64,000 bases of DNA from Ancylobacter novellus DSM 506. GTDB lineage: Bacteria; Pseudomonadota; Alphaproteobacteria; Rhizobiales; Xanthobacteraceae. Position numbers and translations under genes: made by a program. The notes beneath the pieces are model-generated. The model did no database searches. It saw only the letters and a program-made list of their open reading frames with translations, and was not told the origin of the DNA. Position 1 is the stretch's first letter; each line of letters begins with the position of its first letter. The stretch is from NCBI RefSeq assembly GCF_000092925.1, contig NC_014217.1, positions 3,286,001 through 3,350,000 on the forward strand. The letters are read 5' to 3'. Below, one piece after another: positions 17,021-50,816 of the stretch.

Positions 17021-17405
17021 GACTGCCAGCCGGCCGGACGGCCGCGTCACCGCAAGGTGCCGAGGAAAGTCCGGGCTCCACGGAGACACGGTGCCGGATA
17101 ACGTCCGGCGGGGGTGACCCTAGGGAAAGTGCCACAGAAATCAGACCGCCTCGGGTCCGCCCGCGGCAAGGGTGAAACGGTGCGGTAAGAGCGCACCGCG
17201 CGTCCGGCAACGGAAGCGGCACGGCAAACCCCACCGGGAGCAAAGTCGTATAGGGGTGGCGCGAAGCGTAAGCTTCAGGTCCCGTCTTCGGACAGCCGCC
17301 CGGGTTGACTGCTCGAGGCGCCAGGCAACTGGCGTCCCAGAGGAATGGCCGTCACGCGGGAGCGATCCCGCCATACAGAACCCGGCTTACAGGCCGGCTG
17401 GCACT
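17021..17405 (+). ncRNA. rnpB: RNase P RNA (class A)
   Basis: The catalytic RNA that matures tRNA 5' ends. Diagnostic conserved segments are all present in order: GAGGAAAGTCCGGGCTCC (17062-17079), the GGTGAAACGGTGCGGTAAGA block with GCGCACCGCGCG, GGCAAACCCCACC, and the 3' ACAGAACCCGGCTTAC (17375-17390). Ends are set by the P1 helix: TGCCAGCCGGCC near 17024 is complementary to GGCCGGCTGGCA near 17393. A TTGACG at 16990-16995 could be its -35 box, but no good -10 was found. The flanks 16906-17020 and 17406-17503 show no gene. Confidence 0.95.
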
Positions 17406-46526: not shown

Positions 46527-46551
46527 GCCACAGCCCACCGCCCCACTTCCC

Positions 46552-46641
46552 TCATCCCCGGGCCTGACCCGGGGATCCAGCCTTTGCTTCCGGGGAGCCT
46601 CCGGTCCAAGTCTGGATGGCCGGGTCAAGCCCGGCCATGAG
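46552..46641. repeat. Palindromic intergenic repeat, family B, copy 6
   Basis: TCATCCCCGGGCCTGACCCG at the left and GGATGGCCGGGTCAAGCCCG plus GCCATGA at the right. It separates the aldo-keto reductase from the TetR gene. Confidence 0.78.
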
Positions 46642-46738
46642 GGAAGAGGCGCTTCGGGTTTGTTCTTATTTCCATCAGCTATATTTTCGTGTTCATAACG
46701 ATCAGGGGAACGACGAGCGCCATCGTGGGAGACGACCG

Positions 46739-47400: not shown

Positions 47401-48570
47401 ATGACGAGTGGTCCTGAGAATGCCTCCCCGCCCTGGCGCATCGGCGTGCTGTTCTCCGCCACTGGCGTAACGGCGGCGGTCGAGACCTCGCAGCGCGGCG
47501 GCACGCTGCTCGCCATCGACGAGATCAATGCCGCGGGCGGCGTCCTCGGCCGGTCGGTCGAGGCCGTCGTCTATGACCCCGCCTCCGATCCCAAGTCCTA
47601 TCGCCGCTATGCCGAGAAGCTGCTCGGCGAGGACGGGGTGCGGCTGATCTTCGGCTGCTACATGTCCTCCACCCGCAAGGCGATCCTGCCGGTGGTAGAA
47701 GCCTATCGCGGCCTGCTGTTCTACCCGACGCTCTATGAAGGCTTCGAATATTCCCGCCACTGCGTCTACACCGGCGCGGCCCCGAACCAGAACTCGATCC
47801 AGCTCGCCAAGTACCTGCTCGGCACCTACGGCAACCGCTTCTTCATGATCGGCTCGAACTACGTGTTCCCTTACGAGTCGAACCGCATCATGAGCGACTT
47901 CGTCATCCAGTCGCAGGGCCGGGTGCTCGACGAGGTCTATGTGCCGCTCGGCGCCGGGCCGGCCGATTTCGAGCGGGTGATGGCGAAGGTCAAGAAGGCC
48001 GCACCCGACGTCATCTTCTCCACCGTCGTCGGCGCAGACACGGCGACGCTCTACGAGGCGCACCGCGCCGCAGGCTTCGACGCGGCGAGGCTGCCCATCG
48101 CCAGCCTCACGACCAGCGAGGCCGAGGTGGCGCTGATGTCCCCCGAGGCGGCCGCCGGCCACATCACCGCCGCCCCCTTCTTCGAGACGCTGGGCACGCC
48201 TGCCGCGCGCCGCTTCGTCGCCGCCTTCAAGGCGCGCAACGGCGCGGATGCCCCCGTGACCGCCGCCGCCGAGGCCGCCTATTTCCAGGTGCATCTCGCC
48301 TTGCGTACGCTCGCCCGCGCCGGCACCGACGCGCCCGACCCGTTGCTGGCGCAACTGGCGGATTCCGAGTTCGACGCGCCGCAGGGCCGCGTGCGCGTCG
48401 ACGCACAGACCAATCACACCTGGCTCTGGCCGCGCGTCGCCCGGCTCGACGCCAAGGGCCGGTTCCAGATCGTCTGGAACCCCGGCACGCGGGTGAAGCC
48501 CGATCCCTATTGCGTGGTGCAGAGCCTCGACGACTGGTCGGCGGACGGCCTGCACACCGAGCCCTCTTAG
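47401..48570 (+). CDS. amiC: AmiC-like amide sensor (periplasmic-binding-protein fold, cytoplasmic)
   Basis: Ligand-sensing negative regulator that sequesters AmiR until a short-chain amide binds. The 389 residues form a type I periplasmic-binding fold (WRIGVLFSATGVTAAVETSQ, FGCYMSSTRKAILPVVEAYR, YVFPYESNRIMSDFV) closely similar to AmiC and urea-binding proteins. No signal peptide is present, which argues for a cytoplasmic sensor instead of an ABC transporter protein, and amiR follows after 12 bp. No ABC transporter genes are next to it. It starts 95 bp after the TetR gene. Confidence 0.88.
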   Translation: MTSGPENASPPWRIGVLFSATGVTAAVETSQRGGTLLAIDEINAAGGVLGRSVEAVVYDPASDPKSYRRYAEKLLGEDGVRLIFGCYMSSTRKAILPVVEAYRGLLFYPTLYEGFEYSRHCVYTGAAPNQNSIQLAKYLLGTYGNRFFMIGSNYVFPYESNRIMSDFVIQSQGRVLDEVYVPLGAGPADFERVMAKVKKAAPDVIFSTVVGADTATLYEAHRAAGFDAARLPIASLTTSEAEVALMSPEAAAGHITAAPFFETLGTPAARRFVAAFKARNGADAPVTAAAEAAYFQVHLALRTLARAGTDAPDPLLAQLADSEFDAPQGRVRVDAQTNHTWLWPRVARLDAKGRFQIVWNPGTRVKPDPYCVVQSLDDWSADGLHTEPS

Positions 48571-48582
48571 AGAGAGGGCGGC

Positions 48583-49185
48583 ATGGCGATCCAGATCCTG
48601 AAGGATTTGCGCGGGCTGAAGGTCCACGTCATCCACCCGCCGGACGAGGAGCGCGGCAGCCTCGTCGAGCATCTGCGCCGCATCGGCTGCATGGTAGAGA
48701 TCACCTGGCCGGTGCCGGCCGACTGGCCCGCCGCCGATATCGTGCTGCTCGCCATCGAGCAGGACGCGCGGCCCGAGATCGCCAGGCTGCTGAAATCCGA
48801 CCCGGACGCGCGGCCGACGCTGATCGCCATCGTCGGCTATGAGAACCCCTCGACGCTCCAGCTCGTGCTTGAATCCGGCGCCGTGGCGGTGGTGGAGCGC
48901 CCCATCCGCCCCTTCGGCCTGCTGACCAACCTCACCATCGCCCGCAGCCTGTGGCTGGAGCGCGAGGAGGCGAAGAAGCGCGTCACCAAGTTGGAGCGCA
49001 AGCTCTCCGGCATCCAGAAGATCCAGAAGGCCAAGTCGATCCTGATGGAGAGCCAGGGACTGAGCGAGGAAGAGGCCTATCAGAGCATCCGCCGCCAGGC
49101 CATGGCCAAGCGCGTGCCGATGGAGGACATGGCGCTGGCCATAATCAACGCCAGCGAATTGCTGAATTTCCGGCCGCGCACCTGA
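48583..49185 (+). CDS. amiR: AmiR, ANTAR-domain transcription antiterminator
   Basis: RNA-binding antiterminator for the amidase operon. The 200 residues have an N-terminal receiver-like domain without the phosphorylation Asp pattern, a coiled coil (about 123-150, REEAKKRVTKLERKLSGIQK) and a C-terminal ANTAR domain (KAKSILMESQGLSEEEAYQS, then IRRQAMAKRVPMEDMALAII). ANTAR proteins bind hairpins with hexaloops and prevent a downstream terminator; both elements are visible in the next 200 bases. A GAGAGGG Shine-Dalgarno precedes the start. Confidence 0.93.
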   Translation: MAIQILKDLRGLKVHVIHPPDEERGSLVEHLRRIGCMVEITWPVPADWPAADIVLLAIEQDARPEIARLLKSDPDARPTLIAIVGYENPSTLQLVLESGAVAVVERPIRPFGLLTNLTIARSLWLEREEAKKRVTKLERKLSGIQKIQKAKSILMESQGLSEEEAYQSIRRQAMAKRVPMEDMALAIINASELLNFRPRT

Positions 49186-49259
49186 CTGTGCTGATGCGGC
49201 AACACCGGCATTTGCCGGGGGTCGCGCCGCTTGAACTCGTCGGGCGGCGATGTTTCAAT

Positions 49260-49275
49260 CCTCGACTGGACGAGG
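49260..49275 (+). promoter_or_regulatory. ANTAR-type hexaloop hairpin (P1) in the amiE leader
   Basis: CCTCG, loop ACTGGA, CGAGG: a 5-bp stem with a six-base loop having A at position 1 and G at position 4, the published ANTAR recognition feature. It lies 75 bases after the amiR stop and about 60 bases before the terminator. A second equally clear hexaloop was not found; ATCGAT at 49308-49313 has the right loop bases but a poor stem. Confidence 0.7.
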
Positions 49276-49337
49276 TCGGCATTGCCGGCGGCGTCATCTG
49301 CCCGGTCATCGATGCTGCTGGCCGGGCGCGGCGGTGA

Positions 49338-49375
49338 AGCCCGGAAGGCTCGCGAGAGCCTGTCGGGCTTTTTTT
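49338..49375 (+). terminator. Attenuator terminator upstream of amiE
   Basis: AGCCCG (49338-49343) pairs with CGGGCT (49364-49369); inside, AGGCTC-GCGA-GAGCCT forms a second stem; seven T follow (49369-49375). The 5' arm GCCCGG (49339-49344) can instead pair with CCGGGC (49322-49327), which would destroy the terminator. That CCGGGC can itself pair with an upstream GCCCGG (49300-49305). These alternatives are seen in the sequence; regulated switching by AmiR is inferred. The remaining leader (49376-49522) shows only the amiE Shine-Dalgarno. Confidence 0.85.
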
Positions 49376-49522
49376 GTGCCTGGCATCCGGCGGGACAATG
49401 CCGTCCCCGCCGACGCGCAGCGAGAGCCGGCGACCATCGCGCCGGCGCCATCCATCCCACAACGCAATGGCCCGGCCGCTTGCGCATGAGCGCCCGCGCG
49501 CCTTCACGCGAGGAGAACACCC

Positions 49523-50560
49523 ATGTTGCACGGCGACGTTTCCAGCAGCAAAGACACGGTCGGCGTGGCCGTGGTGAACTACAAGATGCCCCGCCTGCAC
49601 ACCAAGGCCGAGGTGCTCGAGAACGCCCGCAAGATCGCCGACATGATCGTCGGCATGAAGACCGGCCTGCCGGGCATGGACCTCGTGATCTTCCCGGAAT
49701 ATTCGACCCACGGAATCATGTACGATTCCAAGGAGATGTACGACACCGCCGCCACTGTGCCGGGCGAGGAGACCGAGATCTTCGCCGAGGCCTGCCGCAA
49801 GGCGAAGGTGTGGGGCGTGTTCTCGCTCACCGGCGAGCGCCACGAGGAGCACCCCAACAAGGCGCCCTACAACACGCTCATCCTGATGAACGACAAGGGC
49901 GAGATCGTGCAGAAATACCGCAAGATCATGCCCTGGGTGCCGATCGAGGGCTGGTATCCCGGCAACTGCACCTATGTCTCCGACGGCCCGAAGGGGCTGA
50001 AGGTCTCGCTCATCATCTGCGACGACGGCAATTATCCCGAAATCTGGCGCGACTGCGCGATGAAGGGCGCCGAGCTGATCGTGCGCTGCCAGGGCTACAT
50101 GTACCCGGCCAAGGACCAGCAGGTGATCATGGCCAAGGCCATGGCCTGGGCCAACAATTCCTATGTCGCGGTGGCGAACGCCGCCGGCTTCGACGGCGTC
50201 TATTCCTACTTTGGCCACTCGGCGATCATCGGCTTCGACGGCCGCACGCTCGGCGAATGCGGCGAAGAGGAGTACGGCATCCAGTACGCCGCGCTCTCCA
50301 CCTCGCTGATCCGCGACGCGCGCAAGAACATGCAGTCGGAGAACCACCTCTTCAAGCTGGTGCACCGCGGCTATACCGGCATGATCAACTCCGGCGACGG
50401 CGACAAGGGCGCCGCCGAATGCCCCTACGACTTCTACAAGAAGTGGATCGCCGACCCGGAAGGCACGCGCGAGATGGTGGAGTCCTTCACCCGGCCCATG
50501 GTCGGCACCGAGGAATGCCCGATCGAGGGGATCCCGAACAGCGAGACGGCGCATAGGTGA
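49523..50560 (+). CDS. amiE: Aliphatic amidase
   Basis: Hydrolyses short-chain aliphatic amides to carboxylic acid and ammonia. The 345 residues match Pseudomonas aeruginosa AmiE nearly throughout as I remember it, including the start ([18 protein letters not shown]). The nitrilase-superfamily triad is at the family positions: E59 (VIFPEYS), K134 (QKYRKI) and C166 ([16 protein letters not shown]). AGGAG lies eight bases before the ATG. Expression is probably gated by the leader terminator at 49338. It supplies ammonia and carbon from amides; no uptake gene is adjacent. Confidence 0.97.
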
Positions 50561-50630: not shown

Positions 50631-50641
50631 TCCCGATGGCC

Positions 50642-50816
50642 GTCATCCTGAGGTGCCCGACCAACGGTCGGGCCTCGAAGGATGCTCGTCTTGGTGCACT
50701 ATAACGACCATCCTTCGAGGCTCGCTACGCTCGCACCTCAGGATGACGGGGCACCTTTTGGGGGTTCGTCATGCTGAGGTGCCGGCGCATTGCGCCGGCC
50801 TCGAAGCACGCAGGCG
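50642..50816. repeat. Palindromic intergenic repeat, family C, full and partial copies
   Basis: The full unit (50642-50748) runs from GTCATCCTGAGGTGC through GGCCTCGAAGGATG to CATCCTTCGAGGC and GCACCTCAGGATGAC, so the whole element is an inverted repeat with a central TTGGTGCACTATAACGA. A partial unit follows (50768-50816): GTCATGCTGAGGTGCCGGCG to GGCCTCGAAGCACGCAGG; its inverse occurs at 6587-6635. These fill the 287-bp convergent gap. Confidence 0.8.

Follow-up and report, generated by a model that had tools for sequence, protein, structure and literature searches.

Results

The window, by which we mean the whole 64,000-nucleotide stretch of the Ancylobacter novellus DSM 506 genome analyzed here, encodes AmiC, AmiR and an aliphatic amidase together, in the order amiC-amiR-amiE on the + strand. 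The product of amiC (47401-48570; Peripla_BP_5, 468.6 bits) is probably the amide-sensing, periplasmic-binding-like partner of AmiR. The amiR gene (48583-49185; PF21332, 131.4 bits, and PF03861, 57.8 bits) encodes an AmiR_N pseudo-receiver and an ANTAR RNA-binding domain, and its product matches the solved structures of AmiR (1qo0, 5.7e-27) and EutV (6wsh, 1.4e-7); the nearest named AmiR records in a contig scan belong to Xanthobacteraceae and Ancylobacter. Downstream lies amiE (49523-50560; aliphatic amidase NF009802, 728.3 bits against a cut-off of 427), the putative controlled gene. The genome holds four ANTAR domains, and amiR is the gene adjoining the leader, which occupies the gap 49186-49522 between the amiR stop codon (ending at 49185) and the amiE ATG (49523). 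The window also contains RNase P RNA, class A (17026-17405, 303.9 bits), inverted repeats with 45 nt arms (82%) around the start of the 46616 ORF (46540-46652), and intergenic inverted repeats after amiE (50640-50808), including a pair of 17 nt arms that are 100% complementary.

Anatomy and folding of the leader

An intrinsic terminator lies at 49336-49375 (+), with a stem (49336-49344/49363-49371), an inner stem (49346-49351/49356-49361) and a U tract (49369-49375). For the hairpin at 49333-49378 the folding energy is -26.3 kcal/mol (z -4.5), and 0 of 200 shuffles were as good. Directly before it stand two hairpins with six-base loops. P1 (49300-49327, +) reads GCCCGGUCA U C[GAUGCU]G C UGGCCGGGC and was characterized by covariation, a hold-out model and a table of loops; its stem has nine pairs, one U x C mismatch and, one step above it, a closing C-G pair, and its loop (49311-49316) carries G at positions 1 and 4. 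P2 (49330-49341, +), GGC[GGUGAA]GCC, has three pairs and a loop (49333-49338) with the same G1 and G4, and its 3' arm GCC (49339-49341) is the start of the terminator 5' arm.

The first-pass annotation of this DNA had placed GCCCGG at 49300-49305, CCGGGC at 49322-49327, GCCCGG at 49339-49344, CGGGCT at 49364-49369 and seven T at 49369-49375, and these positions are correct. It had found no obvious second hexaloop and suspected a departure from the two-hexaloop architecture. Both hexaloops are present, at 49311-49316 and 49333-49338, and what departs is loop position 1. The G1 in both loops, together with the P1 mismatch below the closing pair, may be the reason they were overlooked.

When the growing transcript was folded from an assumed start at 49264, P1 had appeared by 49329, P2 had joined it by 49341, and the helix of the terminator was in place by 49369. 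The helix energies are -18.2 kcal/mol for P1 (about -17 to -18), -4.7 for P2 and -26.3 for the terminator. Forcing P2 places the fold ~10 kcal/mol above the free minimum (-53.1 vs -62.9), and therefore something must hold P2. RNAfold shuts the window P1 loop further by a G1-U6 wobble, leaving a tetraloop. A P1 register shifted to CCAA/UUGG, with a loop of 3-5 nt, was tried by eye and set aside; it suits leaders with A1 A2 and fails at G1. On the window leader, the one leader scanned, Rfam release 15 gave no ANTAR-like match, and the top sub-threshold match, flg-Rhizobiales, was rejected at 23.9 bits vs a gathering score of 55.

Related leaders and covariation

Relatives were gathered through AmiR, with matches at E 1e-20 in 22 of 198 family genomes, at E 1e-50 in 20 of 397 order genomes, and at E 1e-50 or better in 21 of 30 genus genomes (identities 52-100%). 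A contig scan for AmiR gave 27 loci and an ANTAR search of the window's own genome was added, so that all searches pooled came to 90 loci with many duplicates; after deduplication, 49 had an AmiR at least 50% identical. An amiC homologue lies 5' of amiR in 46 of the 49. The pattern sought for P2 and the terminator was GGC, 6 or 7 bases, GCC, then GGGC/T and a T tract, and it is present in 44 of the 49 loci. The consensus of these 44 leaders is a hairpin C[NNNGNN]G followed by GGC[NNNGNN]GCC, which leads into a terminator of the form GCCC...GGGC/T with at least five T. Since the leaders were found via the adjoining AmiR, that AmiR adjoins them is no independent finding. The gene 3' of the element is amiE in 28 leaders and uncalled in 3; in the other 13 it encodes an AmiC-like protein, probably the binding protein of a transporter. 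The element thus accompanies AmiR and not amiE as such. Of six more distant genomes, five have amiE, and in the 380 bases 5' of each of these genes no such element was recognized by eye.

Five loci (L050, L057, L078, L079 and L084) lack the P2/terminator pattern. The L050 gap after amiR holds, by eye, a P2-like hairpin GGC[CATACG]GCC without G4, scores 28.5 bits with the model, and has likely diverged. L084 keeps a P1 hairpin (12.3 bits) with no recognized P2 or T-tract terminator before amiE; here the switch has perhaps decayed to constant expression. Two genus relatives have second, weaker copies (L019:3279-3362, minus, and L089:220-298, plus; 25.5 and 27.7 bits with the hold-out model), and the position of the L019 copy upstream of amiC suggests self-control of the regulator genes.

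The uniform GGC/GCC of P2 was imposed by the search pattern, and the overlap of P2 with the terminator is the same in all 44 aligned leaders, but the search required it. The P1 script demanded a C-G closing pair and G4 and tried offsets from -2 to +3; where two offsets were compatible, as in 5 of 44 leaders, the nearer one was chosen. G at position 4 of P2, which the search did not demand, is found in 44 of 44 leaders, and the P1 G4 is an invariant column in a MAFFT alignment of leaders cut by P2 position only. Loop-to-loop spacing is 22 nt in 33 leaders, 23 in 7, 24 in 2 and 21 in 2. Below the closing pair of P1, position -2:+2 is a pyrimidine-pyrimidine mismatch in 25 of 44 and a standard pair in 19.

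Taken together, P1 and P2 have 85.5% of alignment cells paired vs 72.7% in shuffled columns, and slid controls reach at most 43.6%; 72 cells are altered on both sides vs 25.0 shuffled, and such changes are seen at all ten P1 pairs. The three P2 pairs are invariant, carry no information on pairing and are also constrained by the terminator. The terminator itself is 92.4% paired, with 62 both-side changes vs 21.0 shuffled. These results bear on a reading of the locus as a plain constitutive terminator that ends the amiCR transcript, with an amiE promoter downstream and no antitermination. A strong terminator between regulator and enzyme genes, and the retention of amiE in L084 without recognized P2 and terminator, speak for such a reading, yet it gives no reason for a conserved P1 and both G4, nor for the covariation of P1, and we regard it as very unlikely.

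A hold-out covariance model (R2) was built from the 23 leaders (of 44) that lie outside the genus group. It finds the window element at 49296-49374 with 73.1 bits (E 1.3e-19), whereas the next + strand match in the window scores 11.4 bits and the antisense of the site 18.9. For the 20 further leaders that had been left out, the scores are 46.0-79.2 bits. The full model (R1), run on the window's genome with 150 of 5728 first-look candidates scored, gave six matches up to E 10. Among the candidates scored, the window site has 81.1 bits, the leader after a second amiR copy 30.3, the antisense of the window site 20.6, and three matches at 14.7-15.9 bits were taken as chance.

The second amiC-amiR pair of this genome (L033/L003) encodes an AmiR ~39-40% identical to the first. 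Its leader (G000:C1:3415915-3415998, minus) is the same kind of two-hexaloop attenuator, with the P1 loop AGCGUU and the P2 loop UAUGCA, that is, U1 in P2. A 289-residue ORF, named nitrilase-like by eye, lies 3' of it.

The proposed three-way switch

The first-pass annotation had read the four hexamers as a three-way switch. Its pairing 1:2 is the P1 stem and its pairing 3:4 the terminator, both strongly covarying. The remaining pairing, 2:3, would join CCGGGC (49322) to GCCCGG (49339) as an antiterminator incompatible with P1 as well as with the terminator. In the window these hexamers show perfect complementarity, and the six pairs alone are worth -12.7 kcal/mol; across the leaders, 68.8% of 2:3 cells are paired vs 65.5% in column shuffles, with only 1 of 500 as high and the covariation score likewise. 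However, 10 of the 42 distinct rows form pair 30:51, both-side changes are absent from four of the six pairs, and the 11 both-side changes (6.0 shuffled) are outnumbered by the 14 of a version slid by one column. P1 is also made before 2:3 and is stronger, at -17 to -18 kcal/mol. The mean pair probability of 2:3 is 0.0003 at 49345, where P1 has 0.99, and 1.7e-8 at 49378. We read the excess over shuffles as a by-product of the GCC/GGC letters common to two true helices, and consider a 2:3 antiterminator scarcely credible. Covariation across relatives and the folding energies sustain P1 and the terminator and fail to sustain 2:3.

Upstream hexaloop, promoter and leader frame

The hairpin CCTCG[ACTGGA]CGAGG, which the annotation had singled out as the ANTAR hexaloop, is present by reading at 49260-49275 (+), and we judge it to lie outside the conserved element. 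A1/G4 hexaloop hairpins of at least five pairs occur 32 and 22 times on the two strands of the 64 kb window, a chance rate of 0.17 per 337 nt on the + strand.

It could still be an additional AmiR site, a third hexaloop acting jointly with P1 and P2, with counterparts in relatives. C[ATGGAY]G, a form that has A1, G4 and a closing C-G, recurs at almost the same position in 9 of the 13 genus-type leaders examined, and an A1/G4 hairpin of at least four pairs is found 95-41 nt before P2 in 7 of 44 leaders, vs a shuffled mean of 2.8 and a top value of 7 in 100 shuffles. The close relatives L006 and L081 have a four-pair hairpin of this type (G-U included) near the place of the window hairpin. Against this, C[ATGGAY]G is missing from the window itself and from L007, L009 and L018, and at five pairs or more the window is alone (1 of 44; shuffled mean 1.2).

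The 5' arm of the 49260 hairpin would also precede the expected transcription start. A candidate amiE promoter, TTGAAC-N17-TTCAAT, can be read at 49231-49259 (+; boxes 49231-49236 and 49254-49259), and the arm would fall between its -10 box and the site where transcription is expected to begin. In 29 of the 44 leaders a similar pattern (TTG[AC][AT][ACG], 16-18 nt, TTA[GA]) precedes the P1 arm by 64-79 nt, in part overlapping the coding sequence of amiR. The 15 leaders without a match to this pattern include the window with its TTCAAT form, and a generic promoter scan scored none at 49231-49259. All told, we think a third AmiR site improbable.

The same region bears on the annotation's suggestion of ribosome-dependent switching. 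In such a mechanism a short leader peptide at the leader 5' end would set the choice of helix. In several Ancylobacter relatives, ATGGAYGNTTTCCGGGCA or a close variant of it directly follows the candidate promoter. A conserved stretch ATGGAYG... lies ~7 nt 3' of a TTAGAT box in nine gaps (L006, L008, L010, L011, L012, L035, L040, L041 and L081), where it forms the hexaloop-like motif C[ATGGAY]G; beyond the stretch its reading frame is not maintained. In the 12 leaders with the stretch, counting the window (a 13th, L084, lacks it), the frame runs for 13 to 52 codons to unrelated ends, starting with CTG in the window and L009. The genus leaders that were read share no conserved ORF, and we give this mechanism hardly any credence.

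Loop position 1 and AmiR residues

The published ANTAR loop rule is A1 and G4 (PMC3369931), and the window departs from it with G at position 1 of both loops. Across the 44 leaders, position 1 of P1 is A in 37 and G in 7; in P2 it is G in 19, U in 16, A in 9 and never C, and it changes at least eight times on the AmiR tree. The full A1/G4 rule is thus followed in P1 by 37 of 44 leaders and in both loops by 9 of 44. In these nine the loop immediately preceding the terminator is a second hexaloop of the A1/G4 type, a finding that the first-pass annotation had named as contrary to its model.

NasR SELEX favors A1 (PMC7496416), and A53U in P2 of eutP lowers induction (PMC3369931). In the EutV-RNA complex the conserved G4 is stacked on Tyr164 and A1 makes no specific protein contact (PMC8934654); the authors propose that A1 is maybe retained against cross-loop pairing into a pseudotriloop.

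In our leaders, all 35 P2 loops with a base other than A at position 1 have A at position 6, as do 5 of the 9 with A1. The pair that usually closes a pseudotriloop is that between loop positions 1 and 5. In P2 such a pair is possible in 7 of 9 A1 loops, 15 of 19 G1 loops (12 as G-U) and 0 of 16 U1 loops, and the window loop GGUGAA cannot form it. On these counts, which take the cross-loop pair to be 1-5, the loops do not follow the anti-pseudotriloop role suggested for A1. A 1-6 pair is possible in 16 of 16 U1 loops, which might be tetraloops.

On the protein side, residues were matched to EutV by our own count on the alignment, including a two-residue numbering shift. Counterparts of Lys149, Glu160, Arg168, Met172 and Arg175 are identical in 44 of 44 AmiR; at the Tyr164 position, 39 have Y and 5 have F. 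The window AmiR accordingly retains the G4 contacts Lys149, Glu160 and Tyr164, plus Arg168, Met172 and Arg175. Counterparts of Arg142 (a P2 G4 contact), Asn173 and Arg177 are never R, N and R in the 44 and are absent in the window AmiR. AmiR residues compared against loop position 1 gave no clean partition, and phylogeny confounds the comparison.

Discussion

We propose that the amiR-amiE leader is a transcription attenuator of the type controlled by ANTAR proteins (AmiR/EutV/NasR), with a probability of about 0.9. The first-pass annotation's placing of an AmiR-type attenuator before amiE is borne out, with the two-hexaloop element found in 44 of 49 AmiR loci. What we computed is the conserved anatomy, the covariation of P1 and the terminator, the predicted folding order and the partner genes; AmiR binding, release by amide and the switch itself we infer by analogy. 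On this model, RNA polymerase coming from a promoter in the amiR-amiE gap, from amiCR read-through, or from both, would make P1 and then P2. Unaided, the stronger terminator hairpin would capture the P2 3' arm, and transcription would halt near 49375, before amiE. Amide bound by AmiC would lead to AmiR being let go, and an AmiR dimer would grip the P1 and P2 loops, keep P2 and block the terminator, so that amiE is transcribed.

The element can be viewed beside the eut, nasF and Pseudomonas aeruginosa amiE dual-hexaloop antiterminators (PMC3369931), with which it shares two six-base-loop hairpins of at least three pairs each, G4 in both, a P2 that overlaps the terminator and an ANTAR partner; the P. 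aeruginosa amiE loops are taken as that paper describes them. The C-G closing pair of the window loops is as in NasR SELEX (PMC7496416). Departures from PMC3369931 are G1 in both loops where A1 is published, and a long covarying P1 stem with a pyrimidine-pyrimidine mismatch one below the closing pair, as 25 of the 44 leaders have it. From loop to loop the window measures 22 nt, and eutP 24 nt, from A29 to A53 (PMC3369931). Counting the full P1 stem, the linker to P2 is 2 nt, whereas eut linkers are 5-12 nt and a 3-nt linker lowered induction (PMC3369931).

In the nasTS-nasABGHC system of Paracoccus denitrificans (PMC5424462), the regulators also lie directly 5' and hairpins stand before the enzyme genes; there NasS senses nitrate, where the window AmiC would be expected to sense amides. 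Actinobacterial ANTAR RNAs (PMC8164766) show A1/G4 conserved in "more than 50%", with a single variation allowed in curation, and are said to regulate translation, whereas the window leader has a terminator. Relaxed loops as such are therefore not new. Here G4 is invariant in 44 leaders and position 1 alone is relaxed, and within the main-text literature consulted, partly in excerpt, we found no description of a relaxed position 1 in AmiR leaders.

Several points speak against the ANTAR reading: the G1 loops, the tetraloop-like P1 (PMC8934654 argues that smaller loops, tetraloops among them, are excluded), the 2-nt linker, the missing counterparts of Arg142, Asn173 and Arg177, and a 2:3 helix that outscores nearly all column shuffles. 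Because A1 is lacking in the window, we file the leader as a variant and not as a standard member of the ANTAR dual-hexaloop class. It aligns with the 9 of 44 leaders that have A1 and G4 in both loops, and it is largely ordinary, its departure amounting to one base per hairpin loop.

A freer position 1 is structurally sensible; it fits the EutV-RNA structure, because A1 makes no specific protein contact there (PMC8934654). From conservation, the G1 and U1 loops would be functional. Whether AmiR of this Hyphomicrobiales lineage reads G4 and the closing C-G, and not A1, we consider evenly balanced. The natural G1 and U1 loops make the pseudotriloop suggestion testable.

The analysis supplies a 44-member, covariation-supported set of AmiR leaders and also replaces a plausible but unsupported helix model. 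If AmiR in this lineage does read G4 and the closing pair, searches that demand A1 would miss or penalize most such switches, and if position 1 is truly free, the ANTAR search rule should be relaxed to G4 and a C-G closing pair.
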